NCBI RefSeq assembly: GCF_022808855.1 | Contig: NZ_JAKZLF010000001.1 | Location: forward strand, 62,001 to 126,000 | DNA length: 64,000 nucleotides | Direction: 5' to 3' | Source: Anaeromyxobacter soli | GTDB taxonomy: Bacteria > Myxococcota > Myxococcia > Myxococcales > Anaeromyxobacteraceae | In this document: positions 28,165-44,541 of the stretch, piece after piece | Position numbering within the stretch: the first letter of the stretch is position 1 | Layout of the letters: the number at the start of each line of letters is the position of its first letter | Made by a program: the position numbers and the translations under genes | The notes under the pieces: generated by a model | Told to the model about the DNA's origin: nothing | The model's input: the letters and a program-made list of their open reading frames with translations, nothing else | The model's database searches: none

Positions 28165-28204
28165 AGAACGGGGGGCCACCGCGCATTGCGCGGCAGCCCC
28201 GTTC
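28165..28204 (-). terminator. Terminator of the FN3 cytochrome gene
   Basis: On the minus strand a long G+C hairpin (arms ending at 28204 and 28165, loop AAT, one or two mismatches) is followed by CTTTG. It lies 24 bases beyond the stop codon. Confidence 0.6.
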
Positions 28205-28227: not shown

Positions 28228-30006
28228 TCAATAAGGCATCGGGTCGTACCACCAGATCCCGAATGCATCGACGCTCGACCACGGCGAACGGAGATCGTGC
28301 GCAGCGTCCCGCGCCTGGACGCGCCAGTAATAGGTCGCGCCCGGCCACTCGGTGGCCGTGAAGGTCTTCGCGTACGTCGTCGAGGGGGTCCAGGGCCCGT
28401 CGAACACGAGCGGAGCGGTGAAGCCGGGGTTCGAGGAGATCTGGATGCGGTACTCGACGGGATCCCCGTTGGGATCCGCGACGGCGGCCCACTGGAACGT
28501 GACCGGCACGGCGGTCTCGGGGTACGGAACGGCGCCGTCATCCACCGGCGTGAGCGCAGGCTGCCCAGGCGCGTTGGGGTCGGGCGTGGTGAACGTGTAG
28601 ATCTGCGACACTGTCGCGTTCCGCATCGCGTCCGACGAGCGGACCCGGTACGCGTACTGCGTGAGCGGAGCGAGACCGGTGAGCGTCACCTCGCGACAGG
28701 GGGTGCTCACGCCTGGCCCGCAGGGCTGGGTCACGAGCAAGCCGTTGCCATCGACGTTCGAAGGCGTCCCCACGCCCCATTCGACGTAGGAGGTGGCCTT
28801 CTCGTTCGTGGTCCAGGACACCTTCGCGCTCGTCCCCGTGACTTCCGTGACGACCACGTTCGTCACCGTGGGGGCAACGTACTCCGGCGCCGCGGGGAAC
28901 CATCCCGCGGTGTGGCAGTGCCAGCAGTAGGCGTTCGGGTCGCTGATCGCCACGCCGGGCACGGGGTGGTCCGCCCAGGTGGGAAGCTTGAAGTTCACGA
29001 TGCCTTCATGGCCGTGGCAGAAGAAGCAGGGCTTGTTCGCGCCGCCGGGGACGGGGTCCGTCGTGTGGCACCCGGCTGCATTGCACCCCGCGTGGCGCGC
29101 GCCGGAGTGACACCGCTCGCAGAGCGCCTCCGCTCCCACTCCGGCGCGGTTGATCGTCGCATCCGCCACCGGCGACGTATTCACGTTCGACGCGAACAGG
29201 AACGCGTTCGAGCTCTGGTGCGCGTCGTGGCAGGTCACGCACGGAAGCGGACCAGCGCCCCGAGCGTACCCGATGAGCGACCCTCCGAACCCCGTGCCGG
29301 CGCGCGCGCCGTGGAAGTCCCCATCGGCGGACGCGTAGCCGACGAGGAGCGGCGGCGTCTTGCCCGCGACCGCGGTTCCCCGTCCGCCGTGGCACTTCTT
29401 GCACGCACCGTCCACCTGGGCCGGATCATTCGGGTCGAGCGCGCCGACCCCCTGGATGACCACGGTCCCGGAGACGTGCCTGCTCGTGTCGTGGCAGTTC
29501 TGGCAGGCGGCGCGGTTCGCCGTGGCGCTGGAGCTGTCCACGCCGTGGCTCGACCTCACCGGGAACGCTCCAGCCTGACCCTGCGAGTGGCACGAGCTGC
29601 AGGCGAGCGGGCCCGGAGCGCTCCAGTCGACGGGCTGCGTCGTCGCGAGCCCGCCGACGTTATGACACGCCACGCTGCACGTCGTTCCGTTCGCGCCGAC
29701 GGTCACCACGTTTTCCGGCCCCGAGATCGACGCTCCGCTCGTCGGGAGCGTGTACGTGCTCGAGAACTGCATGAGCCCGCCGCACTCGTGGCAGGTGGCG
29801 CACTGGAACCCGACGAGACCATGCTTGTCGTGGGCACCCGTGCCGCGGCAGACCGGGCCATCGGCGGTCGCGGTCGCTGCGGCGCGTGTCCGGCGGACCG
29901 AGGCGGGCGCCGGAGCGCCACTCGATGGTTCATCCTCACCGCAGGCGATGACCAGGATGGTCGACAGCGCAGCCAGGGCGATCGGACGCCCCAGGAGAGA
30001 TCGCAT
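28228..30006 (-). CDS. Lipoprotein decahaem cytochrome fused to fibronectin-III domains
   Basis: A 592-residue protein. The ATG at 30006 follows GAGGAGGGG, which decides it over the GTG at 30024. A lipoprotein signal ends LVIAC. Residues of about 60-362 carry ten candidate haem sites: eight CxxCH, one CxxxCH (CSVACH) and one CxxxxCH (CNAAGCH). The N-terminal HDKH...CATCHECGG block matches the 19-haem paralogues. From about 375 to 480 comes a fibronectin type III domain (SAKVSWTTNEKATSYVEWG), then a second beta-sandwich-like domain to the end. The domains suggest binding to a surface polymer, another cytochrome or a mineral. It is monocistronic, with site C upstream. Confidence 0.92.
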   Translation of the reverse strand: MRSLLGRPIALAALSTILVIACGEDEPSSGAPAPASVRRTRAAATATADGPVCRGTGAHDKHGLVGFQCATCHECGGLMQFSSTYTLPTSGASISGPENVVTVGANGTTCSVACHNVGGLATTQPVDWSAPGPLACSSCHSQGQAGAFPVRSSHGVDSSSATANRAACQNCHDTSRHVSGTVVIQGVGALDPNDPAQVDGACKKCHGGRGTAVAGKTPPLLVGYASADGDFHGARAGTGFGGSLIGYARGAGPLPCVTCHDAHQSSNAFLFASNVNTSPVADATINRAGVGAEALCERCHSGARHAGCNAAGCHTTDPVPGGANKPCFFCHGHEGIVNFKLPTWADHPVPGVAISDPNAYCWHCHTAGWFPAAPEYVAPTVTNVVVTEVTGTSAKVSWTTNEKATSYVEWGVGTPSNVDGNGLLVTQPCGPGVSTPCREVTLTGLAPLTQYAYRVRSSDAMRNATVSQIYTFTTPDPNAPGQPALTPVDDGAVPYPETAVPVTFQWAAVADPNGDPVEYRIQISSNPGFTAPLVFDGPWTPSTTYAKTFTATEWPGATYYWRVQARDAAHDLRSPWSSVDAFGIWWYDPMPY

Positions 30007-30242: not shown

Positions 30243-31157
30243 CTACTGGGCGATGCTCGTGAACATCTGCACGCGGTTGTTCGAGCGATCGGCCACGAAC
30301 GCGTCCCCCTGAGCGTCCAGGCAGATCTGCGACGGATAGTAAAGCAGCCCGTCCGTCCAGCCGAGGCTGAGCTGGCGCCCCAGGTAGCTCCCGTCCTGCC
30401 CGAGCAGGACGAGACCCGCGCCGTTCTGGTCGACCGCGAGCAGGACACCCCGGTTGTTCGCGGTGAGATAAGTCGGGAAGCTCGCGTAGTCCTTGAAGCT
30501 CTTCCCGAGCGGGGAGAACGCCGTCGCGCCCTTGGCGGCGGACCACACCGTCGCGCGCACCGCGTCGAGCACGTAGACGATCCCGCCCGCGTCCACGGCG
30601 ACGTCCATGAAGGCCCCGGCGTCGGCGGGGAGCGGGAGCGTCGCCGTGACCGCTCCCGAGGAATCCGCCACGAACACCTTCGCGGCGGCCGTGTCGAGCA
30701 CGTAGAGGTTGTCACCGCGGTCCACCTTGAAGCTCGTCGGGACGACCTCCGTCACGCCGGCGGGCTTCAGGTCGACGTACCCCTGGAACGCGCCCTTGGC
30801 ATCGAGCCGTGCGATCTTCCGCAGCTTGCGGTCGAGCACGAGCATGTTGCCCTTCGAGTCGAGCTGCAGGCGCACCGGGTGCTTCAGCTGCGGCACCTTC
30901 ACCTCGGCCGCCGGCGTCACGGCCCCCTCCTTCACGAAGTAGGTGAGGAGGCGTGCGTTCCCGGTGTCGGCGATCACGAGCAGCCCGGCGTCGTTGCAGG
31001 CCACGCCCTCGGGCGCGGACAGCTTGCCGTCCTTCGCGTCCCTGTACACCGTGGCCTGGTGCTTGAACGCGACGCTCTGCGCGCGTGCCCCGCTCGCGGC
31101 GAGGACGACGACGAGCGAGACGATCACCCTCGCGTCGATGGCTCTCAGCACGGTCAT
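30243..31157 (-). CDS. Periplasmic or secreted NHL-repeat beta-propeller protein
   Basis: A 304-residue protein with a signal peptide ending SGARA. Its repeats follow NHL/YncE style (VIADTGNARLLTYF, MLVLDRKLRKIARLD, AFVADRSNNRVQMF), giving a six-bladed propeller. There is no haem motif. The ATG at 31157 shares one base with the stop of the 16-haem cytochrome gene (TGATG), so it is co-translated with it. NHL proteins recur beside nanowire and porin-cytochrome genes in electron-transferring bacteria. A second one lies beside the OmcS-like gene here (43615). A role in assembly or docking of the cytochromes is inferred. Confidence 0.9.
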   Translation of the reverse strand: MTVLRAIDARVIVSLVVVLAASGARAQSVAFKHQATVYRDAKDGKLSAPEGVACNDAGLLVIADTGNARLLTYFVKEGAVTPAAEVKVPQLKHPVRLQLDSKGNMLVLDRKLRKIARLDAKGAFQGYVDLKPAGVTEVVPTSFKVDRGDNLYVLDTAAAKVFVADSSGAVTATLPLPADAGAFMDVAVDAGGIVYVLDAVRATVWSAAKGATAFSPLGKSFKDYASFPTYLTANNRGVLLAVDQNGAGLVLLGQDGSYLGRQLSLGWTDGLLYYPSQICLDAQGDAFVADRSNNRVQMFTSIAQ

Positions 31158-32425
31158 CACCTCGTGAACTTCTCGTGGCACTTCGTGCACGTCTCGGGGA
31201 CCGTCGCGTAGGGCATCATCGACTTGAACTCGGTGCCGTGCGCGCGATGGCAGCTGAGGCACTGCAGGGTCAGGTTCTTGTTGCGCGGGTCGACGTACTT
31301 CGCGCCGACCGGGTGCGACGAGTGCTTCTGCCAGTCGTGGCACTTCCCGCAGAGCTCAGGCGACTCGGCCTTGACGAGCATGAGCGCGGCGTCCGAGCCG
31401 TGGGGATCGTGGCAGCTCGTGCACTCCGAGTTCTTGATGGGCTCGTGCTTCGTCACCGACATGTCGCCGCGCTTGATGGTGTCGGCGTGGCAGCTCCCGC
31501 AGACCGTCCGCATGTCCGCCTTGAGGAGGCCCTTCTCCTTGGACGCGTGGGGGCCGTGGCAAGACAGGCAGGCGGCGCCCTCCGTGACCGGTCGGTGAAG
31601 GCGGTTCTTGTCCATCATCTTGTTGATGTTCTGGACGTGGCACCCGCGGCAGAGCGCCAGCCCCGCCTGCTTCGGCTCGAAGCCCCTGGGAGACCCCGGT
31701 GCCTCGTGGCACTGGCCGCACATGCCCTTCGCGACCGGCGCGTGGACCGTGTTGTAGAGCATGCCGCGCACGTTCGAGCCGTGCGGGTCGTGGCAGCTCG
31801 TGCACCTCGCCTTCGCGACGGGGTAGTTCATGTGCTTCTTCATCAGGATCGGCCCGTCCACCTTGTGGCAACCCAGGCAGAGCTGGGGGACGTCGGCCTT
31901 GAGCAGCTTCAGGCCGGTGGCCGATGCGTGGGCCTCGTGGCAGCTCCCGCAGCCGTTCTCGACCGCTCGGTGCTTGAACTTGGACGCCTTCGCCCCGTCG
32001 ACGAGGGTCTTGTGGCACGTCGCGCAGAGGTCCGGGCCGGCCTTGACGAGGTTGGCCTTCGCGTTCGAGGCGTGCGGATCATGGCACTCGCCGCACTTCT
32101 GCTGCGTGGCCGGCGGGTGGGTGCTCTTGGCGTTCTTCGCGACCACGTCCTTGTGGCACGTCGCGCAGATCGCGTTCGCGTCCGCCGCGAGGAGCTTGCC
32201 GTGGTCCGAGGCGTGAGGGTTGTGGCACCCGACGCAGTCCTTCGAGCGCACCGGCGTGTGGACGAACGGCTTCTTGAGCCGGTCGGCGAAGTCCGGGTGG
32301 CACTCGAGGCAGACCTGCCCGGCCGCCCCCGGCTTCAGCTTGAACTTCGGGGCAGGTGGCGCCGCGGCCGCAGGCCCGGCCAGGGCGGCGACCGCCAGGA
32401 CGAGGATGAAAGGTCTCGCGCTCAT
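31157..32425 (-). CDS. Periplasmic 16-haem cytochrome (doubled CXXCH family)
   Basis: A 422-residue protein with a cleavable signal peptide (AALAGPAAAA). By my count 16 CxxCH motifs are spread evenly, in the doubled-CXXCH pattern (TIGR01905/PF09699): CxxCH-xPHxS blocks alternate with LCxxCH blocks. No Cx3 or Cx4 variants occur, unlike the lipoprotein cytochromes. The lysine-rich composition suggests a soluble or peripheral periplasmic carrier. It lies nine bases after the 26-haem gene and overlaps the NHL gene by one base, in the order isomerase, 26-haem, 16-haem, NHL. It probably hands electrons between its neighbour and an outer-membrane step. Confidence 0.93.
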   Translation of the reverse strand: MSARPFILVLAVAALAGPAAAAPPAPKFKLKPGAAGQVCLECHPDFADRLKKPFVHTPVRSKDCVGCHNPHASDHGKLLAADANAICATCHKDVVAKNAKSTHPPATQQKCGECHDPHASNAKANLVKAGPDLCATCHKTLVDGAKASKFKHRAVENGCGSCHEAHASATGLKLLKADVPQLCLGCHKVDGPILMKKHMNYPVAKARCTSCHDPHGSNVRGMLYNTVHAPVAKGMCGQCHEAPGSPRGFEPKQAGLALCRGCHVQNINKMMDKNRLHRPVTEGAACLSCHGPHASKEKGLLKADMRTVCGSCHADTIKRGDMSVTKHEPIKNSECTSCHDPHGSDAALMLVKAESPELCGKCHDWQKHSSHPVGAKYVDPRNKNLTLQCLSCHRAHGTEFKSMMPYATVPETCTKCHEKFTR

Positions 32426-32434
32426 CTTTGTCCT

Positions 32435-34384
32435 CTACTTCTCGACGACGTGGCAGTTGCCGCAGTCCCGCGACGCGAACGGCGCGTGCTGCAGGTCCTT
32501 GAACATCTTGGGGTCCTTGGAGGCGTGCGGATCGTGGCAGCTCGTGCAGCTCATGTCGGACGCCGCGATGCCGAGGTGGGCCTTCGTGAACTTGCCCTCC
32601 TTCTCGTCGTGGCACTGGCCGCACAGCTCGGCCGCCCGCTGCACGGCGAGCTTCGGCTGCTTCGCCGAGTGCGGGCCATGACACGCCAGGCAGTCCTCGA
32701 CCGGCTGGTGAGGCTTCTCCGCCGCGAGCTTCTCCTTCATCTTCGTGTGGCAGGTGACGCACACGTCCGGAGTCTGCGCGAGCATCAGCTTCTTGAGCTT
32801 CGCCTGGTGCGGGCTGTGGCACTTCGTGCAGTCACCCGCGCTGAACGCAGCGTGGATGCTCGTCGCGCCCTGAACCGCCTTCTCGGTCTTCTCGTGACAG
32901 CGCGCGCAGAGCTGCTTCTCCTCGGAGACCAGCATGCCGGCGGTGTTCGAGCCGTGCGCGTCGTGACAGGTGAGGCAGTCACCCTTCGCGAACGGCGCGT
33001 GCGTCGTCCCGCTCGCGTCCGCCTTCATCATCCCGGCGTGGCACGGCTCGCACAGCTTCGCGCCCCTGGCCTTGAGGAGCTTCGGCTCGTCGGAGCCATG
33101 CCCGGAGTGGCACGCTCCGCACCGCCCATCGAGCACGGGCTTGTGGGTGTGCGTCTTGATGAAGCGCGTCTCCTCCTCGGCGTGGCAGGCGAAGCAGACC
33201 TTGTCGAGGCGGGACTTGACCATGCCCGGCAGGTTGGAGCCGTGCGGGTCGTGGCAGGCAGCGCAGTCCCGGTCCACGAACGGCTGGTGCGCGATCTTGC
33301 GCTTCTCCTCGAACGTCTTCTTGTGGCACGCGCCGCAGAGCGTCGCGACGTTGCTCGCGAGGAGCTTCTTCTCCTTCGTGGCGTGCGGCTTGTGGCACGA
33401 GCCGCACGCGCCGGGGGAGGACATCGGCGCGTGCGCGACCGAGACCTTCTGGCCCATCTGCGGGTGGCACCCGAGGCAGAGCTTCGCGCCGGGGGCGTGC
33501 GTGAGCTTGGGCGCGCCGGACGCATGCGGATCATGGCACGCGACGCACTGCCCGTCCTTCACGGGCTTGTGCACCACGGTCCCGCCGCCGAGCAGCTTGC
33601 CAGAGTCGTGGCAGTTCGCGCAGAGCTTCGCGCCGGCTTCCTGGACGGCGAACGGCTTCGCAGACTTCGCGGGCGCGTGGCAGTCGGAGCAGGACGACTC
33701 CGCGACGGGCGGATGGAGCGAGGCCTTGAGGAGCTTCGCGCGATCAGCGGAGTGCGGATCGTGGCAGCCGGTGCAGGTGGCCACCGGGTAGCCGCCGTGC
33801 GCCTTCACGAACCCGCCGGCGCTCGCCGAGTGGCACTTCGAGCAGAGCTTCCCCTCCTCGGCGACGAGCAGGTTCTTCTGGTCGGACGCGTGCGCCACGT
33901 GGCACGCCTGGCACCCGTCCTTCGCGAGCACCTTGTGCACGTTCTTGCGCTCGAACGCCGACTTGTCGTGGCAGGCGTAGCAGACCTGGCTGCCCTCCGC
34001 CTTCAGCATGTGCGGCGCGTTCGAGCCGTGGACGTCGTGGCACTGGCCGCACGCGCCGGTGCGGAGCACCTTGTGGACGTTCGGCTTGTCGAGGCCGATC
34101 GACTCGCGCTTGTGGCACCGGAAGCAGAGGTTCGCGCCGGCCTCCTTCAGCACGAGCTTCGGCACCACGCCGTGGCGCAGGTGGCAGTCCTCGCACTTCC
34201 GCTGCTTGACCGCGGGGTGCGTGAACTTCACCGAGTCGTACTTCTCCGCGAACGGCTTGTGGCAGTCGATGCAGTCCTTGGACTTGAACTGTCGCGCCGC
34301 CTCCGCCCGGCCCGGCGCGGCGGCGAGGAACGCCGCCGACAGGGCCGCGAGCGCGAGCGTCCACCGGTTGGTCTTGCTGGTCAC
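32435..34384 (-). CDS. Periplasmic 26-haem cytochrome (doubled CXXCH family)
   Basis: I chose the GTG at 34384, which gives a clean signal peptide ending GRAEA and 649 residues; the frame is open upstream. There are 26 CxxCH motifs by my count, in the same doubled-CXXCH arrangement as the next gene (CHDPHGSN...LCxxCH repeats of roughly 50 residues). The long, regular, lysine-rich chain suggests an extended haem wire across the periplasm. It lies 32 bases after the parvulin gene, which may assist its folding. I recall large doubled-CXXCH cytochromes near omcS in Geobacter, but could not check this. Confidence 0.93.
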   Translation of the reverse strand: MTSKTNRWTLALAALSAAFLAAAPGRAEAARQFKSKDCIDCHKPFAEKYDSVKFTHPAVKQRKCEDCHLRHGVVPKLVLKEAGANLCFRCHKRESIGLDKPNVHKVLRTGACGQCHDVHGSNAPHMLKAEGSQVCYACHDKSAFERKNVHKVLAKDGCQACHVAHASDQKNLLVAEEGKLCSKCHSASAGGFVKAHGGYPVATCTGCHDPHSADRAKLLKASLHPPVAESSCSDCHAPAKSAKPFAVQEAGAKLCANCHDSGKLLGGGTVVHKPVKDGQCVACHDPHASGAPKLTHAPGAKLCLGCHPQMGQKVSVAHAPMSSPGACGSCHKPHATKEKKLLASNVATLCGACHKKTFEEKRKIAHQPFVDRDCAACHDPHGSNLPGMVKSRLDKVCFACHAEEETRFIKTHTHKPVLDGRCGACHSGHGSDEPKLLKARGAKLCEPCHAGMMKADASGTTHAPFAKGDCLTCHDAHGSNTAGMLVSEEKQLCARCHEKTEKAVQGATSIHAAFSAGDCTKCHSPHQAKLKKLMLAQTPDVCVTCHTKMKEKLAAEKPHQPVEDCLACHGPHSAKQPKLAVQRAAELCGQCHDEKEGKFTKAHLGIAASDMSCTSCHDPHASKDPKMFKDLQHAPFASRDCGNCHVVEK

Positions 34385-34416
34385 AGCCGTGCCCTCGCTG
34401 AAGTCGTGGACCGCGC

Positions 34417-36246
34417 TCACCCGTCGACGCGCGTGATGTAGACCTTGACGTCGTGCTCCTTGCGGAGCTTCGCCACCCACTCCTTGAGCGCCTTCTCGAC
34501 GCTGCTGGCGAACACCTTCTTGCCGATCGTCTCGCGGCTCTCCTTGTACGGCTGCTCCTTCCCGGGCGTGACGTCGAGGAGCTGGACGACGTAGGCCTGG
34601 CCCCCGTGTGACGAGTAGAGCCGGAACTCACCCTTCTTGGCGCCAGCGAGCAGCTTCGCGAGCTCCTCGGGCAACCCCTTCGCGCTGTAGATCGTGCCGC
34701 CGAAGTCGAGGTCGCGCTCCTCCGCCGGCACCAGGTCCGCCGCGTTCGACTTCAGCCACTTGAGATCCGTGCCCGACTTGATCTTGTCGAGCGCGGCCTG
34801 CGCGGCCTTGCCGTTGCGGAACGCGAGGGCGTCGAGCCGGTAGAAGGCGGGGGTGCTGAACTCCGCCTTGTGCTTCTCGTAGTAGTCCATGAGCTCGCCC
34901 TCGGTGACCTTCACCGAGGGGACCACCGCGCGCTGCACGAACATCCCGAAGAGGAGCGAGGTCTCGTACTCGGCGACGACCGCCTTGTACTCCTCGCTCT
35001 GGTCGAGCTTCTGCGCGAGCGCCTCCTTCTTGAAGAGCCGGCGCATCAGCATCCCCTCGAACGTCTGACGCTTCACGACGTTCACCTGGTTCGCGCGGAT
35101 CGGCCCCTCCATGCCGTGGAAGAACTTGAGCGAGATCCCGGCCGCGAGGTCGCCGACGGTGATCGGCGCCTCGCCGCGGATCCGCGCCAGCACCCGCTTG
35201 TCCTTGTAGAGCGCGTTCCAGCCGGGCTTCTTCGCCTCGTAGTCGAGCCGGTCGATGAGCTTCTCGTCGACCGTCGCGTACTTCTTCGCGAGCGCCTCGT
35301 AGGCCTTGAGCACTGCCTCGCGCCGCTTCGCCGCGAGCGAGCGCTCCTCGGCGATCGCCCGCGCCTCGGGATCCTCCGGGTACCGGACGTCCACCACCTT
35401 GATGACCGTCCAGCCGGAGGGGATCTTGACGGGGGGGCTCACCTGACCTGGCTTGAGCGCCGCGACCGCCATCTCGATCTGCGGGAGGAGCTTCGACTCG
35501 GGGACGAAGACAGGCTCCTCGTTGCCGCGCGCCTTCTTCTCGGCGACGAGTCGCTTCGCCGTCTCCTCGAACGCCTTGGCGTCCCGGACGAGGGGCGCCA
35601 CCGCCTTCGCGTCCTCCTCCTTGTCGAGGACGATCGAGCGGAGCTTCCACTCGCGGACCGAGTCCTGGAAGATCTTCTCGACGGCGGCCGGATCGGCCTT
35701 CACGTCCTTCGAGACCGTCTGCTCGAAGACCTTCCGGAGCGCGGTCTCCTCGTACTTCGCCAGCTCTTCCTTGAGCTGGGGGAGATCGTCGATGCCCATG
35801 TCGCGCGCCTCGGAGGCGACGACGCGGGTGTCGATGAGCCGCTCGAGCACTCGCGTGAAGTCGCTGCGGCTCGCGGGAGCGGCGGGGGCCGCCTCCTCGC
35901 CCGCCTCGCCCTCCTCGTGCGATCGCGGCGCGTGCTCGAGGGCCAGCGTGTCCACGAGCTGGCCCATCGTGATGACGTCGCCGTCGACCACCGCCGCCGG
36001 CGTCGAGGCGAACCGGGGCGACAGGAACGGCACCTTGAGGAGGGCGCTCGCCCCCTCCGGCTCGGCGGTCTTCTTCGCGGGGGCGGTCGGAGCGCTCTTC
36101 TTCGCCACGCCCGAGTCACCCTTGGCGGCATCGGTCTTCGGCGCGGTGGCCGCCGGCGGCACCTTCGTCGCCGCAGCGGGAGCCGCCGAGAACGCCCACG
36201 CAGGCAACGAGGCCAGCACGGCTGCGAGAACTGCACGCGTCGTCAT
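34417..36246 (-). CDS. Periplasmic parvulin-type peptidyl-prolyl isomerase (SurA/PpiD-like)
   Basis: A 609-residue protein. The ATG at 36246 follows GAGAGGAG, giving a signal peptide ending in an Ala-rich cleavage region (AFSAAPAAA). A Lys/Ala/Pro linker follows, then a SurA-like N-domain. Two parvulin-like segments follow: about 260-315 (ALKPGQVSPPVKIPSGWTVI) and about 500-570 (LDFGGTIYSAKGLPEELAKL). Such chaperone-isomerases help beta-barrel and extracellular protein folding. As first gene of the operon with 26- and 16-haem cytochromes and an NHL protein, it is probably a dedicated folding helper for these or for a partner barrel. Confidence 0.9.
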   Translation of the reverse strand: MTTRAVLAAVLASLPAWAFSAAPAAATKVPPAATAPKTDAAKGDSGVAKKSAPTAPAKKTAEPEGASALLKVPFLSPRFASTPAAVVDGDVITMGQLVDTLALEHAPRSHEEGEAGEEAAPAAPASRSDFTRVLERLIDTRVVASEARDMGIDDLPQLKEELAKYEETALRKVFEQTVSKDVKADPAAVEKIFQDSVREWKLRSIVLDKEEDAKAVAPLVRDAKAFEETAKRLVAEKKARGNEEPVFVPESKLLPQIEMAVAALKPGQVSPPVKIPSGWTVIKVVDVRYPEDPEARAIAEERSLAAKRREAVLKAYEALAKKYATVDEKLIDRLDYEAKKPGWNALYKDKRVLARIRGEAPITVGDLAAGISLKFFHGMEGPIRANQVNVVKRQTFEGMLMRRLFKKEALAQKLDQSEEYKAVVAEYETSLLFGMFVQRAVVPSVKVTEGELMDYYEKHKAEFSTPAFYRLDALAFRNGKAAQAALDKIKSGTDLKWLKSNAADLVPAEERDLDFGGTIYSAKGLPEELAKLLAGAKKGEFRLYSSHGGQAYVVQLLDVTPGKEQPYKESRETIGKKVFASSVEKALKEWVAKLRKEHDVKVYITRVDG

Positions 36247-36513: not shown

Positions 36514-37806
36514 TCAGCCTTCGTGCGGCTCGCGGCGGACGGCGCCGACGGCGCGCTGCTCATGCGGCGGGCGCTCCACGGTTCGCCGCTCCAGCGCAGG
36601 AGAGCGATCACGCGGGCCGGGCTTCGTCGCGGCGGCGATCCCGTCCACCACGCTGCGGACCATGCGGCACGCGAGCGCGGTCGCGGTGTTCACCCGCCCG
36701 CGATCGAAGAGCACGACGTCGTCGTCACCGCGGTGGTCGGAGGTCGCCTCCCAGACCACCTCCTCGGTGCGGGTGTCGATGAGGGTCACCGTGAAGTCCG
36801 CCTTCGGCACGGGGCCCACGTCGTCGTACTCGCGGACGACGCCGGTCAGCACGAGATCGGTCCCGAGCACCTCCGTCGCGGTGCGCACCGCGAGCAGCGA
36901 GAGCGAGCCCTCGAGGACGATCCGGTAGCGGATGAGCGCGTCGCGCACGACGCCGGGCTCGGCGACCGTGACGGTCCCGAGCGACGACAGGTGCCGGACG
37001 AACTCCACCGCGAGGGCCTCGCCTGCCCCTCTTCGCTCCGTCTGGTTCACGAACGGGAGCACCGCGACGGAGGCCGCGCCGGGCGCGAAGCGGCGCGAGC
37101 GAAAGCTGACCCTGGGCTCGAAGCGGCGCTCCGCCGGGCACGTCGTGACGGGAGAGCCCTGACCGGAGAGGAACCCCGCGAGCGAGCCCGTGAGCCGCGC
37201 GAGCGCGTTTCGCTCGAGCCGCTCGATCTTCGAGATGATCCCGAGATCCAGGAGGCCCGGCTCGTCGTTGCCGCTCAGCACCGCGCCGTCCATCCACAGG
37301 ATCTCGGGTCGTTCTCCCGTCGCGACGAGCCGCATCGTGACGGCGATCTTCGGGGGCGCTCCCGCGTGATAGAGCAGCACCGAGGTGACGAGCACCGCGT
37401 CCACCTCGAGCTCGTCGCGGGCGGCGCTCGCGGTGGCGGCGTCGATGCCCCCCGTGAAGCGGACGCGGTGGCGGGAGAGGAACTCGTCGACGGGATTCCC
37501 CTCGACCACGTCGGCGCCCGCGCGGGCAGCCGCGAGCGAGAGGAGCTTCAGGAGGTGCTTTCCTGGGACGACGCCGCCGCTGAGGTTCTCGATGGGGAGC
37601 ACCGCGATGCGCCGGCCGGCGAGGCGCGGCCGCTCTCGCGGCTTCTCGGGCTCCGCCCGCGGGACAGCTGAATCTGCCCCCATCACGGCAGCGCGCGCCG
37701 CTCCGGGCGACGGCGCCGCGGCCCGAGAGCCGGCACACGCGACGGAGACCGCGAGCGCCAGGAAGGCGAGGGCGACCTTACTTGAACAGCTTGTTGAGGA
37801 GGTCAT
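36514..37806 (-). CDS. Lipoprotein with two CsgG/TolB-N-like domains
   Basis: A 430-residue protein with a lipoprotein signal ending AVSVAC. Two similar halves each begin with an IAVLPxxN strand (IAVLPIENLSGG near 66 and VAVLPFVNQT near 245) and end with a DAVLVTSV or DLVLTGVV strand. This is the fold pattern of CsgG, FlgO and LpoB-type lipoproteins that form or support outer-membrane complexes. The ATG at 37806 lies inside the end of the upstream gene (29-base overlap) behind GGAGGA. It is the last gene of a four-gene operon with a candidate barrel. A role in an outer-membrane channel or its assembly is inferred. Confidence 0.75.
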   Translation of the reverse strand: MTSSTSCSSKVALAFLALAVSVACAGSRAAAPSPGAARAAVMGADSAVPRAEPEKPRERPRLAGRRIAVLPIENLSGGVVPGKHLLKLLSLAAARAGADVVEGNPVDEFLSRHRVRFTGGIDAATASAARDELEVDAVLVTSVLLYHAGAPPKIAVTMRLVATGERPEILWMDGAVLSGNDEPGLLDLGIISKIERLERNALARLTGSLAGFLSGQGSPVTTCPAERRFEPRVSFRSRRFAPGAASVAVLPFVNQTERRGAGEALAVEFVRHLSSLGTVTVAEPGVVRDALIRYRIVLEGSLSLLAVRTATEVLGTDLVLTGVVREYDDVGPVPKADFTVTLIDTRTEEVVWEATSDHRGDDDVVLFDRGRVNTATALACRMVRSVVDGIAAATKPGPRDRSPALERRTVERPPHEQRAVGAVRREPHEG

Positions 37807-38362
37807 CGACGGCTTCCTCCGTCACGTCGTTCAACGGAGCGCCGCCTCCGCCCAGCAGCCGCGCGCCGAAGCCGACCCCTCCCTTGGTGGTGGAGGCGGA
37901 CCAGACGACCTTCCCGGTCTGCGTCTCGATGAGCTGCAGGCTGAGCGATACGACGTTCGAGGACGCGGTTCCGGATCGCAGCTCGCCGTACTCTCGAACG
38001 ACGCCCGTGATCACGGCGTCCGCCTTGAGGAGACCGCCGAGCTTGACCGCCTCCTCGACGTTGGGAGCCGAGGCATTCACGACGCCCACCCGGCTCGCGC
38101 CGCGGATCACCTCGCCGTGCGGGAGGACGTAGATCGAGCCGCTCGCGAGGAGCATGTTGACGAACACGTCCCGGACGCGCTCGCCTGCCATCGAGTCGCG
38201 GCTCAGGTTCGAGAACGGCATCACGAGCACCGTGTGCACCGAGCCGAAGTCCATCTCCGCGTTCTGATAGCGTCGGCGCGCGCCTGGGCCCGAGCACGCC
38301 ACGAGCGAGATCGCGAGCAGGGTCGCGATCAGGGTGCACGCATTCTTGCGCGGGATCAGCAT
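37778..38362 (-). CDS. GNA1162/CsgG-like lipoprotein
   Basis: A 194-residue lipoprotein (signal ending ISLVAC) with a single domain: VLVMPFSNLSRD near 45, DAVITGVVREYG near 115 and a VVSLSLQLIETQTGKVVWSAS strand pair. These features place it among GNA1162/CsgG/LpoB-like proteins that sit at the outer membrane. It ends with a helix EAVDDLLNKLFK. It lies 32 bases after the candidate barrel gene and overlaps the two-domain lipoprotein gene by 29 bases, so the three are translated together. It may be a periplasmic accessory of the barrel. Confidence 0.8.
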   Translation of the reverse strand: MLIPRKNACTLIATLLAISLVACSGPGARRRYQNAEMDFGSVHTVLVMPFSNLSRDSMAGERVRDVFVNMLLASGSIYVLPHGEVIRGASRVGVVNASAPNVEEAVKLGGLLKADAVITGVVREYGELRSGTASSNVVSLSLQLIETQTGKVVWSASTTKGGVGFGARLLGGGGAPLNDVTEEAVDDLLNKLFK

Positions 38363-38394
38363 GTCGCGGCTCCAGTGCAATATGCAGGCCACCG

Positions 38395-40593
38395 TCACAG
38401 CGTCACCGTCAGGTTCGCGGTGAACAGGTGCGAGATCGCGTCCTGCGCCGGCGCGCTCGAGTCGCTCAAGACGTACACGAGATCGAGGAAGGTGCCGGGG
38501 CGGATGGTCCAGCGCGCGGACGGCGAGACGAGCTGGGTCACCGCCTCGGCCGACGTGTCGAGGGTCTTCGAGTACGTCGCGTGCAGCGTGAGATCTCCGC
38601 CCTGCAGGGGCGACCATCCGAGCCCGAAGGTCGCGAGCGTGGTGGGACGCGCCCCACGAATGATCCGCGTCACCGACGCGCTCGCGTAGAGCGCCTCGGT
38701 GGGACTGAACGAGGCGCTCGCATCGGCCTGCTCCAGCGTGGTCGTGCTCGCTGGCACTCCACCGCCCGAGGTGGAGTTCCTCGCAATGCGATAACCCCCG
38801 GAGAGCTGAAAGACCCGGTGAGGTCGGAGGCTCGCCGTCGCTCCACCGATGAGCCCGGTCGATCGCTGACCTCGCTCGAGGAGCGACAGGGTGTAGCCCC
38901 CATTGCCGGAGACGCTGACGCCGCGATAGAGCTCCGCCCTGCTGAACATCGTGAGGGCGTTCGAGAGCGAATTTCCGGTCGTGCCCTGCCGCCAGGCGCC
39001 GGAATAGTTGATCGCGTGGCTCATCGCCGGGAGCGGCGTGTACGCGAGACCGGCGCCGTAGGTCAGGATGCCGCTGTGCGTCTCCTCAGCGAAAAAATCC
39101 TGACGCGCAATTCGTGCGTTCAACGCAAGAGGTTGCGCGAGCTTGTGGGCGAGCGACAGCCCGTTCGTGAGCGCCAGCCGGCTCTCGGAGGTGTCGCGCC
39201 CAGGGGTCCTCGTGTCCGAGCGAGCGACCTGGAGCGAGAAATCATGTGACAGGTTCGGCGACTGGAGCAAGACCGTCCTCGCGCTCGCGCTGGCCGAGTT
39301 GAGCAGTGAGCTGCTGTGCCCACGGATGGCCTCGGCCGGGACCGTCTGGAAGAACTGTAGCTCGGTCACGAATATGTCCGCGTACTTGGGATCGATGGTG
39401 ACCGCGGGGTCGAGGGGAGAGGTGACCACCTTCACGTACCTCGCGGTGATCTCCTCGATGCGGAGCTCGAAGCGGTTCTCGAAGATCCCGAACACCACCG
39501 GGCCGACGAGCGCGACCGGCGTCCAGCGCTCGTTGTCGTCGCTCTGGTACACGCTGAAGCGAAACGCGCTCGTGACGAGCTGGGGGAGCGGCTGGTTGAC
39601 CCAGACGTGGATCGTGTTGACCGGGGTCGCCGGGACGGTGGGCAGCTCGACGCCCATCTCGCGTGCGTTCGAGTCGCCCTTCGTCCGGGGAGAGAACCCG
39701 ATGTCGAGCCCCGCTGCCGCGGTGGTGTTTCCGTCGACGAGCGCGGGGTTCGGGACGAGCGTCGCGGTCTCGGGCGTCGGGAAGCTCTCCACCAGCGACA
39801 GCCCAGCCAGCGGGATCCGCGCAGTCGGGATCTCCGCCCCGGTGTCGCGGACCGTGGTGTTCGCGAACGTCGACTGCACGTCGTAGGTCAGGTGCACGAG
39901 CGTGCGCCGCGAGAACCAGCGGTCCTCGTACGTGACCCGCCCGGTCTGCCCGACGGCGGTCTGCTCGGCGCCGTGGAGGCGGTCCTCGTTGTCGTCGTAC
40001 CGCGCGGAGTAGCCGACCAGCAGCGACTTCGAGGCCTTGTACGAGGCGGTCAGGAGGAACGCGTCGTTCCTCGAATCCTGGGACGCCCGATCGACGTCGA
40101 ACGAGTTCTGGCGGCTCGCCCGGAACGTGATGAGGGGCAGGTCGAGCGGTCTCCAGGCGCTGTCGAAAGCGAGCGTCTCGAGGACCAGGGCTGGCGAGCG
40201 CACATCGAGCGTGCGCGCCCATTCCTGCCGGCGGTCGTAGCTTCCGCGGCCATTCAGCGTCGGGCCGCCGACGTTCAGCCGTCCGAAGATGCTCGCGAGC
40301 CTCGAGTACGAGGTGTCGGCCGAGCCGATCCCGCCCTGCCAGGTCTTGGCGTCCTCGTACTGGCCACCTCCTGCGAGGCTCAAGGAAGGGAAGAACGACT
40401 TGTCCAGCGCGAGCCGATATCGCTGCAGCACCGTGTCGACGGACGAGGTGCGCGCCTCCGCACCTTGATCCGTCACCGTGGACTCCGTCTTCGTGTACTG
40501 CTCCTCGATGACGGCCGACCACCCGTCCCCACGGCCTGCCGTCGCCCAGGCCGCGAGCAGGACACCCAGCGCGGCTCGCGAGAGCCACCTCAT
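38395..40593 (-). CDS. Candidate large outer-membrane beta-barrel with discoidin-like insert
   Basis: A 732-residue protein with a signal peptide (LLAAWATAGRG). Most of the chain alternates short amphipathic strands with turns (for example GRLNVGGPTLNGRGSYDRR, SGNGGYTLSL). It ends LFTANLTVTL, compatible with a barrel C-terminal strand. About 20 or more strands seem possible. Residues of about 320-400 form a non-barrel insert (FRFSVYQSDDNERWTPV...ARYVKVV) resembling an F5/8 discoidin domain. There is no haem motif. It overlaps the propeller lipoprotein gene by ATGA. It is a good candidate for the porin of a porin-cytochrome conduit, or the exporter of a surface cytochrome; which one is not decided by sequence. 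Confidence 0.75.
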   Translation of the reverse strand: MRWLSRAALGVLLAAWATAGRGDGWSAVIEEQYTKTESTVTDQGAEARTSSVDTVLQRYRLALDKSFFPSLSLAGGGQYEDAKTWQGGIGSADTSYSRLASIFGRLNVGGPTLNGRGSYDRRQEWARTLDVRSPALVLETLAFDSAWRPLDLPLITFRASRQNSFDVDRASQDSRNDAFLLTASYKASKSLLVGYSARYDDNEDRLHGAEQTAVGQTGRVTYEDRWFSRRTLVHLTYDVQSTFANTTVRDTGAEIPTARIPLAGLSLVESFPTPETATLVPNPALVDGNTTAAAGLDIGFSPRTKGDSNAREMGVELPTVPATPVNTIHVWVNQPLPQLVTSAFRFSVYQSDDNERWTPVALVGPVVFGIFENRFELRIEEITARYVKVVTSPLDPAVTIDPKYADIFVTELQFFQTVPAEAIRGHSSSLLNSASASARTVLLQSPNLSHDFSLQVARSDTRTPGRDTSESRLALTNGLSLAHKLAQPLALNARIARQDFFAEETHSGILTYGAGLAYTPLPAMSHAINYSGAWRQGTTGNSLSNALTMFSRAELYRGVSVSGNGGYTLSLLERGQRSTGLIGGATASLRPHRVFQLSGGYRIARNSTSGGGVPASTTTLEQADASASFSPTEALYASASVTRIIRGARPTTLATFGLGWSPLQGGDLTLHATYSKTLDTSAEAVTQLVSPSARWTIRPGTFLDLVYVLSDSSAPAQDAISHLFTANLTVTL

Positions 40594-42005
40594 CGCCCAC
40601 GCGCCCCCGCGATCGCGAGCCCGTAGGGATCGTCGCCGACGTCGATGACGGACAGGAGGGAGCGGCTCGCGAGATCCAGGACCGCGATCGCGCGGGACTC
40701 GGGCATGAGGAGGAACAGCGTGTTCTCGACGTCGTCGATGACCATCCACGAGGCGGCGCCGGGGAGCTCCAGCGTGTCGACCGGCAGGAGCGAGAAAGGA
40801 TCGAACACCTGGATGCGGGGCTCCCCTCGCATCGCGACGTAGAGCAGGTCCGTCCGTCGATCGACCAGGATCGCGCCCGCCCCGAGCCCGGCGAAGATCC
40901 GATCCGACGTCGCGAGGTCCGGGACGGAGAGCACGCTGACGTAGGGAGAGCTCGCGTTCGTGACGTAGAGCCGGTTCCCGGCGGAGTTGAGGGTGGCACG
41001 CAGCGGCTCCGGCTCCGTCGGAACCGTGGTGAGCGTCGTGCGCGCGACGGTGTCCACCACGGTGATCGTGTTCGTGCGCCGGCTCAGGACGTAGGCGCGC
41101 CTTCCAGAAGGATCGAGGACGAGCCACTCGGGCTCCGGACCGACGACGGTGCGGCCGAGCTCCGTCCAGCTGACGGTGTCGACGAAGCTCACCGTGTAGG
41201 AGCCCTCGTTCAGCACGATCAGCACCTGGCCGTTCTGCGCGAGCGCCACCTGACCCGGCCGATCTCCCGCGCTGAGCCGGACGCGCGACAGCGTCTCCGC
41301 CGAGACGAGGTCCACGACGGCGACCTCGTCGTCGCCGGCGAGCGCGACGTAGGCGCGGCGCTGGCGCTCGTCGAGGGCGATCCCGCGAGGTTCGCGGCCG
41401 GTGGGGACTGCCGCGACCACCTGCCGCGCCTTCTTGTCGAGGACGAACACGTCGTTCAAGGCAGTGCTCGCCGAGGCGCCGGCGAGGGTGGTCACGGGGA
41501 TCTCGGGGGTGGCCACGGCGAAGGCGGGGGTGAAGCCGTAGTTGCGCTCGATCGCCTCCGCCGGCTTGAGGTACAGCAGGAGGACTCGCGCACCACCGCT
41601 CCGGACGTCGAACCGCGCATCGATTCGCGTGGGCGCCTGCGGCACGAGCAGGTTCGACATCCCGCCGTCGGAACGCAGGCTGGCGTCGGAGACGTCCACG
41701 AGGAGCCCGGCGTACTGCCCCGGCGCCAGCCGCCCGTGGGCGAAGAGGCGCTGGTGGCGGGCATCGCGGCCGGAGAGCACGGGACGGACGAGCTCGAGCG
41801 CGACGCTCTCGCCCTGCTGCGTCACGACGGCGACGGAGCGGACGGTGACGGCGAGCTTCTCCGCCTCCGGGGAGAACGGCTGCACGTAGACGAAGAGGTC
41901 GCCCTCGCCCGAGAGCGGCTCGCGGGCCGCGACCCGTGGCCGGGCGGCGCAGGCGAGGAGCACCGACGCGAGGACCACGGCCTGGAGGACGGTTCGTGTT
42001 CGCAT
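40590..42005 (-). CDS. Lipoprotein with YVTN-type beta-propeller
   Basis: A 471-residue protein with a lipoprotein signal ending VLLAC, from the ATG at 42005 behind CGGAG. Residues of about 30-165 form a beta-rich domain. From about 170 to the end there are seven YVTN-like propeller blades (RRAYVALAGDDEVAVVDL, NRLYVTNASSPYVSVLSV). It is probably anchored at the outer membrane. It is first gene of the operon propeller-barrel-GNA1162-CsgG, coupled to the barrel by an ATGA overlap, which suggests it caps or stabilises the barrel. There is no haem motif. Confidence 0.85.
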   Translation of the reverse strand: MRTRTVLQAVVLASVLLACAARPRVAAREPLSGEGDLFVYVQPFSPEAEKLAVTVRSVAVVTQQGESVALELVRPVLSGRDARHQRLFAHGRLAPGQYAGLLVDVSDASLRSDGGMSNLLVPQAPTRIDARFDVRSGGARVLLLYLKPAEAIERNYGFTPAFAVATPEIPVTTLAGASASTALNDVFVLDKKARQVVAAVPTGREPRGIALDERQRRAYVALAGDDEVAVVDLVSAETLSRVRLSAGDRPGQVALAQNGQVLIVLNEGSYTVSFVDTVSWTELGRTVVGPEPEWLVLDPSGRRAYVLSRRTNTITVVDTVARTTLTTVPTEPEPLRATLNSAGNRLYVTNASSPYVSVLSVPDLATSDRIFAGLGAGAILVDRRTDLLYVAMRGEPRIQVFDPFSLLPVDTLELPGAASWMVIDDVENTLFLLMPESRAIAVLDLASRSLLSVIDVGDDPYGLAIAGARGR

Positions 42006-42095
42006 GCGCGCTCCGATCTCGCGAGCTTCCCTCGGCGAACAACCGGACTGGCGACCTATTCGCACCCGCGACGAAATGAATCGCCCTGACAAGAA

Positions 42096-42123
42096 AGGAG
42101 GGGCCGCTCGCGCGGCCCCTCCT
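42096..42123 (-). terminator. Intrinsic terminator of the NHL-OmcS-like unit
   Basis: A perfect 12-base stem (42096-42107 with 42112-42123) with a TCGC loop, read on the minus strand, is followed by TTTCTTG. It separates the OmcS-like gene from the next operon. Confidence 0.8.
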
Positions 42124-42153: not shown

Positions 42154-43434
42154 CTAGTCCTTCGCGTGGCACTTGTTGCAGAGCGAGCGCTGGAAGAAGG
42201 CGTAGCGCGTCGCCGGGCGGTTGTACATCGCCGCCGCGTACTCGGCCTGCGTCAGGCCCTGGTTGAACTCGCCGTTCGCCATCTCCGTGCCCGCAGCCGC
42301 GTCCTTGCCCGGCCACTGACCGTCGACCGCGACGAAGGGCGCGTTGTTGTTCCAGCGGGAGAGCTGCGGGAACGCCGTGGCGTGCGCGCGGTGGCAGGAG
42401 AGGCACATCACGTTCTCCGTGCCGGTCGTCGGGCCGCCGAGCTGCGTGCCGTCGATGACCGCGTGCGCGGCGAGCGCAGCAACGTTCGCCGAGCCCTCCT
42501 CGTAGGGGATCATCGAGTCGTACGAGGTGGCCTGCGTGCCGGTGAGGTCGCCCGAGCCCTTGTACGCGTTGTAGATGGCCGCGATCGTCGTGCCGAGCGG
42601 GTTGCCGGCGAGGTCGTTCGCCTGCGCCGTCAGGAGCGCGCCGTTGCCGGCCGGGTGGATGAGCTTCGTGTTACCGGCGTTGATGCCGTTGTTGTGGATC
42701 GCGCCGTGGCAGTTCGCGCACCACTCGGACATGCCCGAGCCGTAGGCGACGCGCGTGTCGAACGTCGCCTCGGAGCGGTTGTAGGTCGACGGAGCGACCG
42801 CGATGGGCGGGTCGGCCGTGAACGCCGTGGCGGTCGGGACCGACATCGGAACGTAGCCAATGGGGGCGAGGAGGCGGTACACGCCGACGGCCGCGTCAAC
42901 GGTCGGGGCGGCGCCGTAGGAGCCGGAGCCGTCGATCGGCAGGACCTTCGCGCCGAGCGCGGAGGAGGCGATCGTGCCGGCCGCGTCGACGATGCGGGCG
43001 CGGCTGTGCGGATCGTGGCAGGAGATGCAGGAGAGCTTCGTCGCGTCGTAGTTGCCGCCCGGGGCCGTCGTCAGCTTCGTGTCGGCGCCGAGGGTGTAGT
43101 CGGCCGCGATGACGTTGTGGCCGTGCTTGTCAGCGGCGTTCGTGTACGGCGCGCCGCGGATCGTCGTGACGTAGCTCTTCGTCAGGTACGCGAAGTCGCC
43201 ACCAGGGGTCATCTCGACCACGCCGCCGCCCGTCGTCATGACGTGGTAGCTCTTCGGCGCCGTGTCGGCCGCCGCGTGGCAGTTGAGGCACGTCGAGCTC
43301 TGGTCGCTACCCTGGAGCAGGTAGGCGAAGCCCTGGAACTGCGTGCTGGCCCCCTTCTTGGCCATCGCAGTGTTGCCCTTCGAGTTGTGCATCGTGTGGC
43401 AGCCGTCGCAGGTCGCGACGCCACCGTCGTGGAA
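42154..43434 (-). repeat. Inverted repeat arm 1: omcS mature region
   Basis: 1,281 bases encoding the mature OmcS-like protein, near-identical in inverted orientation to 52036-53316 and of exactly the same length. Similarity begins at the signal-peptide cleavage site and ends at the stop codon. Confidence 0.9.
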
Positions 43435-43497
43435 CGCGTACGCGCTGGAGAAGCTCAGCGCGGCGACCGCTGCAACGGCAAACTTGGTGAACTTCAT
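42154..43497 (-). CDS. omcS: OmcS-like hexahaem extracellular cytochrome, copy 1
   Basis: A 447-residue protein with a signal peptide cleaved near SSAYA-FHDGG. Exactly six CxxCH motifs occur (CDGCH, CLNCH, CISCH, CANCH, CLSCH, CNKCH). Spacing and flanking motifs (GVAxCxGCHTMHNS, TTAPGG, APSTYNR, GMSEWCANCH, SGDLTGTQ, FEEG-like, LCNKCHAKD at the very end) match Geobacter sulfurreducens OmcS as I remember it. OmcS polymerises into filaments with a continuous haem chain used for extracellular electron transfer, and this protein probably does the same. It follows an NHL gene by 117 bases, behind AAAGGGGA. A nearly identical mature region is encoded at 52036-53316. Confidence 0.93.
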   Translation of the reverse strand: MKFTKFAVAAVAALSFSSAYAFHDGGVATCDGCHTMHNSKGNTAMAKKGASTQFQGFAYLLQGSDQSSTCLNCHAAADTAPKSYHVMTTGGGVVEMTPGGDFAYLTKSYVTTIRGAPYTNAADKHGHNVIAADYTLGADTKLTTAPGGNYDATKLSCISCHDPHSRARIVDAAGTIASSALGAKVLPIDGSGSYGAAPTVDAAVGVYRLLAPIGYVPMSVPTATAFTADPPIAVAPSTYNRSEATFDTRVAYGSGMSEWCANCHGAIHNNGINAGNTKLIHPAGNGALLTAQANDLAGNPLGTTIAAIYNAYKGSGDLTGTQATSYDSMIPYEEGSANVAALAAHAVIDGTQLGGPTTGTENVMCLSCHRAHATAFPQLSRWNNNAPFVAVDGQWPGKDAAAGTEMANGEFNQGLTQAEYAAAMYNRPATRYAFFQRSLCNKCHAKD

Positions 43498-43614: not shown

Positions 43615-44541
43615 TCACTCGTACCGGAAGACCTTCACTCCTCGGTTTCCGGACTGCGCGACGAAAACCTTGCCGTTCGCGGCGACGAGGTCCATGGGGC
43701 CGAGGAGGTTCTCCGGGTCGTCCCCCCGGTACCCGAACTCGCCCAGGAACTCGAACTCGCGATCGAAGACCATGACGACGGCGCGGAGGAGGTCGGTGAC
43801 GAGGTAGTTGCCCTTCTCGTCCGTCGCGATTCCTCCGACGATGTTGAACCTGCCGGGCACGCTGCCGTGCGTCCCGAACCTCCGCACCTCGCCCTTGGGC
43901 GACACCACGAAGGCCTGGAACATCGGCGAGACGGTGATGAGGAGGCTCCCGTCGCGATCGACGTTGAAGCCGCTCATCGCGTCCTCGCGGTGGCGCTTGT
44001 CGAACTGGAGGAGGTCGCGCAGCTCGTACGTGGCGACCGTCGCGCCCGCGTCGTCCGTCACCAGCACCTTCATCCCGCCCTTGTCGGCGAGGAAGGTCCG
44101 ACCGGCCGCGCGCTGGAGCGCGTTCGGGGCGAAGTCCTTCGCGAAGCCTTCCGGCAGCCCCTTGATCTCGATCTTGGCGATGGGCTCGCCGCGGAAGTTG
44201 CAGCGCCACAGCGCCCACGTCCTGCCGACCGACGTGAGCACGAGCAGCTCGCCGCTCTCGAGCGGCACGGCGCCGATGATGGTCCCGATGTCGGACTCGT
44301 CGCCGAAGCTGTAGGTCTCGATGCCCAGGTCGGTGAAGACGTGGACGATCCCCTGCGAGCGGTCGACCATGAAGAGCTCGCGGTTCTCGCGGTCGTACGA
44401 CAGCGCTGCCCAGCTCGAGGCGATCCGGCCGCTCAGGCTCGACAGGTCGTAGCCATACCGGGTCCGCAGGCCCGCCGGCGCGTCCGCGTGGGCGGAGGCG
44501 GCGAGGAAGACGGCGAGGATGGCGGTCGAGAGGCGGGCCAT
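43615..44541 (-). CDS. NHL-repeat propeller protein upstream of omcS copy 1
   Basis: A 308-residue protein with a signal peptide ending SAHADA and six propeller-type repeats (ELFMVDRSQGIVHVF, TFLADKGGMKVLVTD, NYLVTDLLRAVVMVFD, VFVAQSGNRGVKVFRYE). There is no haem motif. It lies directly upstream of omcS copy 1, in the same direction, with no terminator between. I recall an NHL-repeat gene next to omcS in Geobacter as well, not verified. It may assist secretion or polymerisation of the cytochrome. A half-match (GTCAA at 44651-44647) to the CRP/FNR-like element lies 106 bases upstream. Confidence 0.88.
   Translation of the reverse strand: MARLSTAILAVFLAASAHADAPAGLRTRYGYDLSSLSGRIASSWAALSYDRENRELFMVDRSQGIVHVFTDLGIETYSFGDESDIGTIIGAVPLESGELLVLTSVGRTWALWRCNFRGEPIAKIEIKGLPEGFAKDFAPNALQRAAGRTFLADKGGMKVLVTDDAGATVATYELRDLLQFDKRHREDAMSGFNVDRDGSLLITVSPMFQAFVVSPKGEVRRFGTHGSVPGRFNIVGGIATDEKGNYLVTDLLRAVVMVFDREFEFLGEFGYRGDDPENLLGPMDLVAANGKVFVAQSGNRGVKVFRYE

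Follow-up and report, generated by a model that had tools for sequence, protein, structure and literature searches.

A probable Anaeromyxobacter counterpart of the Geobacter osc operon, with a large outer-membrane barrel and PelC-like lipoproteins encoded beside an OmcS-family cytochrome

In Geobacter sulfurreducens the cytochrome OmcS has a set of companion genes, the osc (omcS companion) operon GSU2493–GSU2504 (Shen et al. 2025, doi 10.1016/j.chembiol.2024.12.013, as cited in PMC13194489 and PMC12977616). In this operon oscC is GSU2501, oscI is GSU2495 and encodes a 26-haem protein, and oscJ is GSU2494 (PMC13194489, PMC12977616); the osc genes are reported to influence how OmcS is folded, secreted and shaped (PMC13194489). 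A further described arrangement, the oet cassette of syntrophic sulfate reducers, comprises OetABI, OmcX and an OmcS-like cytochrome, and its OetI barrel has been interpreted as an electron conduit (PMC10553843). Here, we analysed a 64,000-nucleotide stretch of the Anaeromyxobacter soli genome (hereafter the window; contig NZ_JAKZLF010000001.1, positions 62,001–126,000; 71.6% G+C, genome size 5.3 Mb), which carries on its minus strand four adjoining genes for a propeller lipoprotein, a large barrel and two further lipoproteins. These four are quite probably the outer-membrane export module of an Anaeromyxobacter copy of the osc operon.

The genes of the cluster, called with a codon-usage gene caller, all lie on the minus strand. 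An NHL/propeller-like secreted protein (43615–44541, a gene call whose position is kept in most related loci) is encoded upstream of an OmcS-family six-haem cytochrome (42154–43497), which is followed by the β-propeller lipoprotein (40590–42005, 471 residues), the outer-membrane β-barrel (38395–40593, 732 residues), lipoprotein A (LIPA; 37778–38362, 194 residues) with a single GNA1162/PelC-like domain, and lipoprotein B (LIPB; 36514–37806, 430 residues) with two such domains in tandem. The run continues with a secreted PpiC-type prolyl isomerase recognised by domain matches (34417–36246), a 26-haem cytochrome related to MtrA and DmsE (32435–34420, 26 CXXCH), a 16-haem cytochrome (31157–32425, 16 CXXCH) and, last of the conserved block, an NHL propeller protein (30243–31157). 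Outside the block an 8-haem cytochrome with a fibronectin-type domain (28228–30006; like the last NHL protein, identified by domain matches and gene call) precedes a strong terminator-like hairpin at 28200–28172, which was found in a general terminator scan and ends the gene run. A first-pass annotation of this DNA had described the four genes as an operon, and the gene calls agree exactly with it in position, strand and spacing, including the ATGA overlap of propeller and barrel, the 32 bases between barrel and LIPA, and the 29-base overlap of LIPA and LIPB, the last being also the median at that junction in 68 related loci. Median gaps within the unit are about 20 bases or less in related loci, and those before and after it are about 128 and 127 bases, so that the four genes look like a sub-unit. 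Beyond them, and unremarked in the first pass, the cluster runs on to 30243 or further, through the isomerase and the 26-, 16- and 8-haem cytochromes.

The succession of an OmcS-family cytochrome, propeller, barrel, two lipoproteins, prolyl isomerase, 26-haem cytochrome, 16-haem cytochrome and NHL protein is that of the osc operon, and the eight genes downstream of the cytochrome equal in number the GSU2500–GSU2493 block (PMC13194489, PMC12977616). The propeller, barrel, LIPA, LIPB, isomerase, 26-haem and 16-haem proteins would then be the counterparts of OscD, OscE, OscF, OscG, OscH, OscI and OscJ, with the NHL protein in the OscK position. GSU2497 is annotated as a lipoprotein and KN400_2445 as a YVTN propeller (PMC3495685), which fits D as the propeller, E as the barrel, and F and G as the lipoproteins. 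By profile, and over whatever length each locus covers, the block genes match those of Geobacteraceae loci other than that of G. sulfurreducens itself (C. bremense, Geomonas and G. luticola; L041, L045, L087 and others). Three of the species named in PMC12977616 as carriers of the GSU2500–GSU2493 block, Citrifermentans bremense, Geobacter sp. L1geo and Geomobilimonas luticola, are also represented among the barrel-bearing loci found here. The window differs from Geobacter in its phylum, in having one adjoining cytochrome in place of omcS, omcT and oscC, and in holding a second, 92% identical cytochrome copy 8.5 kb off on the other strand; its barrel is 23–37% identical to the sampled members of its own clade, the first of two considered here. 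The first-pass description of the machine as previously undescribed cannot stand, since the block is the osc operon, and its four-gene core of 26-haem cytochrome, 16-haem cytochrome, prolyl isomerase and propeller was mentioned in Anaeromyxobacter in 2017 (PMC5539420).

This gene order is shared by Myxococcota, Desulfobacterota, Nitrospirota, Acidobacteriota and Rokubacteria. All 13 homologous Myxococcota loci outside the window genome keep it from the cytochrome to the 16-haem gene, with the NHL gene following wherever the sequence extends; in one of them the OmcS homologue lies 5 kb upstream. An OmcS-based search of named genomes gave 77 loci; 56 of them extend 6.5 kb or more beyond the OmcS homologue on its downstream side, and 43 of these 56 hold the barrel (in Geobacter, Geomonas, Citrifermentans, Geotalea, Pelobacter, Desulfocapsa, Nitrospirota, Acidobacteriota, Rokubacteria and Myxococcota). 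The barrel is present somewhere in 15 of 16 genomes that were checked whole, most of them picked because they had an OmcS locus without the operon. For co-occurrence, the same draws of 790 genomes (Myxococcota 146, Desulfobacterota 297, Nitrospirota 148, Acidobacteriota 199) were searched for both proteins, counting a close barrel at 292 bits or more in Myxococcota (one query sequence) or 430 bits or more elsewhere (profile), and OmcS at 300 bits or more; the next lower score in the barrel profile searches was 250 bits, and the cut-off was set after this gap was seen. Barrel and OmcS occur together in 33 genomes, the barrel alone in none, OmcS alone in three and neither in 754 (Fisher 3e-55, a significance that species relatedness inflates), and in all three OmcS-only genomes the OmcS gene runs into a contig end. 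The 12 Myxococcota genomes with barrel homologues (of 146, by the barrel query) belong nearly all to one family, and 72,556 plasmid records gave no match to the barrel. Within these 790 genomes the operon is, then, not widespread in species without multihaem cytochromes, the pattern that the first-pass annotation had named as counting against its proposal; co-occurrence and synteny with the Geobacter osc block support the OmcS-linked secretion or assembly machine it suggested, a function that is probably right in outline and that others had already proposed and tested in Geobacter.

The adjoining six-haem cytochrome, seen in the first pass as a nanowire-type gene, is a full-length OmcS homologue, aligning by profile with OmcS (6ef8, E 1.2e-159, its sole PDB match) at 53% identity and containing six CXXCH motifs. 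With histidines scored as conserved alignment columns, all twelve well-conserved OmcS histidine columns are filled in the window protein, ten of them invariant in a 118-row alignment. H16, which we take to be the axial histidine that OmcS receives from its neighbour, is present in the window cytochrome and in 108 of 116 rows. Of the OmcS axial histidines, 11 come from the subunit's own chain and one from the neighbouring subunit (PMC6584659). This protein is probably the filament subunit; OmcS homologues in A. dehalogenans were mentioned in 2024 (PMC10954620). A genome of the same genus has a cytochrome identical to the one of Anaeromyxobacter terrae SG22, in agreement with the origin of the window in Anaeromyxobacter. 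The second OmcS-family gene of the window (51967–53316, plus strand) is 91–92% identical to the first. Directly downstream of it is a 2011-residue open frame with 49 CXXCH motifs (53576–59611, plus strand); in two other Anaeromyxobacter loci (L023, L026) relatives of this frame, bearing 31 and 33 motifs, are found upstream of the cluster.

No Pfam model matches the barrel above its cut-off. Its AlphaFold model (m93f6aad9ed2d, pLDDT 90.1), a prediction that the first-pass annotation had advised, contains 28 long strands and resembles many unrelated outer-membrane barrels with no family singled out; the match to 6r2q_B amounts to no more than large-barrel likeness, with Foldseek TM values for MtrB of 0.38–0.42, the best global values among the matches listed. 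Sequence matches in the PDB (Cry23AA1, a porin) look like chance. By standard barrel geometry the C-alpha diameter would be about 5 nm and the lumen, if empty, roughly 4 nm, and the OmcS filament is 4 nm wide (PMC6584659), an agreement of modelled dimensions that is arithmetic and not evidence of passage. The discoidin-like (F5/8 type C) insert suggested in the first pass is borne out by the AlphaFold model and domain models at residues about 249–424 (39322–39849, minus strand; between strands 11 and 12), F5/8 type C models matching 17–20 of 53 barrel homologues with a best E of 1.6e-6, against 0.13, within the insert, for the window protein by itself. The insert would be extracellular in this model if the barrel N-terminus is periplasmic. 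The propeller lipoprotein matches YNCE/lactonase in Pfam, and its lipobox cysteine, C19, is invariant in 14 homologues.

A lipobox cysteine and a PelC-type domain are found in the lipoproteins. LIPA exceeds the Pfam cut-offs for GNA1162, LpoB and CsgG and has sequence matches to GNA1162 and PelC, and LIPB has a weak Pfam match to GNA1162; sequence matches of LIPB to protein G domains were dismissed as weak and due to chance. The AlphaFold model of LIPB (m2498ce91b43d, pLDDT 85.1) has two tandem domains, residues about 63–220 and 228–396, compared with known folds using Foldseek and VIA: the N-terminal domain resembles GNA1162 (4hrv; Z 12.9, 2.6 Å) and the C-terminal domain PelC (5t10; Z 17.0, root-mean-square deviation 2.0 Å over 134 residues). 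The model is made of globular domains only, with no membrane hairpins. The CsgG-type lipoproteins envisaged in the first pass, taken as pore formers, are not supported by this model of LIPB and its fold matches; the lipoproteins are PelC/GNA1162-like and would be ring proteins, with the barrel as the pore. With the CsgG curli channel they share weak similarity of sequence and fold in the ring domain, whereas membrane hairpins are missing from the LIPB model and the pore of the window would be a separate single-chain barrel. In PelBC, twelve PelC make a ring beneath an export barrel (PMC12141448), and the PelC fold recurs here, as would the pairing of an export barrel with a lipoprotein ring; unlike PelBC, the window has a barrel of 28 strands (16 in PelB) that lacks a TPR domain, one lipoprotein in which PelC-like domains are repeated in tandem, and cytochrome genes instead of polysaccharide genes. 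In three related loci the LIPB frame extends into Calx-beta, PKD or Ig-like domains (L058 15558–19016, L074 15412–19335, L102 11290–14106), which is odd for a periplasmic ring lipoprotein.

Between the six-haem cytochrome and propeller genes (42089–42122, minus strand) lies a terminator-like hairpin, GGAGGGGCCGCGCGAGCGGCCCCTCC plus TTTCTTGT, with the hairpin at 42122–42097 and a T-rich tail after it. By a purpose-written scan with folding, 43 of the 62 gaps between omcS and propeller genes (69%) contain such a hairpin, compared with 8% of dinucleotide shuffles, the exact count varying with the rule; the same rule gives 14% at the propeller–barrel junction and 1–5% at four others. The general terminator scan of the window does not list this hairpin, and no structured RNAs or tRNAs were found in the window.

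The 26-haem cytochrome belongs to the DmsE/MtrA family (TIGR03508, E 1.9e-88). Exactly 26 CXXCH motifs are present in 56 of 56 full-length homologues, which suggests a fixed length, and 16 in 30 of 31 homologues of the 16-haem protein; both cytochromes have ordinary signal peptides and no anchor. In three Nitrospirota clusters (L084, L091, L105) the genes for the isomerase, the 26-haem and 16-haem cytochromes and, where reached, the NHL protein form a separate divergent unit, suggesting that the export part and the folding and large-cytochrome part are separable modules. One Anaeromyxobacter assembly (L024 14872–15565, 18 motifs called) seems to carry a disrupted or frame-shifted 26-haem gene, possibly through sequencing error, and the PSR-1 record (L092) shows this gene as two overlapping frames. 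The window is cytochrome-rich between 20000 and 63100, with genes carrying 22, 16, 8, 16, 26, 6, 6, 49, 16 and 3 CXXCH motifs, among which lie several TMTC-like membrane proteins.

The barrel profile also picks up distant barrels at 20–250 bits, those compared being 14–21% identical to that of the window. Multihaem cytochrome genes are present in 33 of the 35 loci of this second clade that were fetched, the other two (L111, L145) ending just past the barrel genes, and most have the same block with its 26- and 16-haem cytochromes together with other small cytochromes (5–7 haems, sometimes 12-haem pairs). These loci probably correspond to the oet clusters known from sulfate reducers of methane consortia and from their relatives; a 26-haem/16-haem operon is described in SEEP-SRB1 (PMC5539420). 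The oet and SEEP-SRB1 clusters share with the window the core of 26-haem cytochrome, 16-haem cytochrome, prolyl isomerase and propeller, and a related barrel and lipoproteins occur in such clusters; they differ in the low barrel identity, in the 5–7-haem and 12-haem cytochromes upstream, and in their published reading as conduits. OetI and the window barrel are likely to be one family. Two reduced clusters (L146 9693–15256, L147 4048–9998) have a distant barrel, one lipoprotein, an NHL protein and a 10-haem cytochrome, with no 26-haem gene, and in an Acidobacteriota genome a 1441-residue frame with 42 CXXCH motifs (L130 15492–19814, minus strand) adjoins a second-clade cluster.

In an export module of this kind, the six-haem cytochrome would leave the cytoplasm by Sec, receive its haems in the periplasm and be aided in folding by the PpiC-type isomerase. 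LIPA and LIPB, with three PelC-like domains together, would form a lipid-anchored ring below the 28-strand barrel, an arrangement suggested because PelC is the best fold match of LIPB and forms a ring under the PelBC export barrel; we infer both this ring and its stoichiometry. The ring would pass the cytochrome, the presumed cargo of the pore, into the barrel for polymerisation outside the cell, with the propeller lipoprotein and the discoidin-like insert serving filament shape or anchoring. Attenuation at the hairpin after the cytochrome gene would likely keep subunit transcripts in excess over those of the machine. Several points weigh against this interpretation. OscD to OscH were assigned by letter order and annotation and not from a stated table; how much OmcS filaments matter is in dispute (PMC13194489), and a pilus-driven route for OmcS secretion is another proposal (PMC12307469). 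The window cytochrome, a candidate OmcS orthologue or OscC-type paralogue, clusters with Geotalea and, more loosely, G. luticola copies, apart from OmcS, in a tree of 118 sequences with modest support between groups, and the filaments of Anaeromyxobacter are themselves predicted from genes.

An MtrB-like barrel sheathing the 26-haem cytochrome could instead carry electrons across the outer membrane to a filament attached outside, with OmcS exported by another route such as a pilus-like system. The resemblance to MtrAB is that of a very large barrel encoded with an MtrA-related cytochrome: MtrB, whose barrel of 26 strands is close to it in size (PMC7198977), gave the best global TM values noted above, the 26-haem protein matches MtrA (6r2q chain A, E 2e-18) as well as its family, its haem number is fixed, and Murali et al. 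interpret OetI, a related barrel, as a conduit (PMC10553843). The window cluster differs from MtrAB in having 26 haems rather than 10 and in its ring lipoproteins, isomerase and discoidin insert. To our knowledge, neither PelC-like ring lipoproteins nor a prolyl isomerase are parts of described Mtr-type conduits. Moreover, the 26-haem gene keeps company with that of the isomerase, and in the three Nitrospirota clusters the two stand in a separate unit; osc genes are reported to affect the way OmcS folds, is secreted and is shaped (PMC13194489). We regard a conduit in place of an exporter as unlikely. A second role for the barrel module as the haem-free half of a conduit, which the first-pass annotation had offered as an alternative, may still hold because the cluster encodes the MtrA-related cytochrome. 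That a PelBC-like exporter of polysaccharide or adhesin, with a part in surface anchoring, merely adjoins cytochrome genes is very improbable: the PelC-like character of both lipoproteins and the galactose-binding-like insert in the barrel are what it would explain, against a conserved block free of genes for polysaccharide synthesis, the strict association with OmcS-family genes and the 28 strands compared with 16 in PelB.

Export and conduction could also be combined, and this is a compatible extension of the export reading: barrel and ring would export the cytochrome, after which the 26-haem cytochrome would dock at or in the same complex and serve the finished filament as its electrical socket. 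Such an arrangement, which we put forward only tentatively, would unite the evidence for both functions and suit a conserved block that in both clades includes the 26- and 16-haem genes; since the ten haems of MtrA span 80 Å (PMC7198977), 26 would reach about 20 nm, an estimate that presumes an extended MtrA-like chain. That the 26-haem cytochrome touches the barrel is a prediction, however, and both large cytochromes have ordinary signal peptides and no anchor.

The present analysis adds to the osc literature an Anaeromyxobacter member, a quantitative four-phylum co-occurrence, a model of a PelC-like ring that includes a tandem lipoprotein, the hairpin conserved after the cytochrome gene, the constant haem numbers and a second, distant clade, and it links two published readings that are in conflict, in which seemingly the same barrel is a secretion channel or an electron conduit. 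The block bears on how a filament leaves the cell and how it is wired to its electron supply. It is conceivable, if doubtful at present, that the osc and OetI barrels form one family of exporter and socket in one, connected to the inner membrane through a cytochrome of strictly 26 haems that is roughly as long as the periplasm is wide, and that the cargo is exchangeable, the second clade building other, undescribed filaments. One gene block travels with OmcS-family genes across four phyla with no clear exception, and it may mark filament capability better than the fast-evolving cytochrome.

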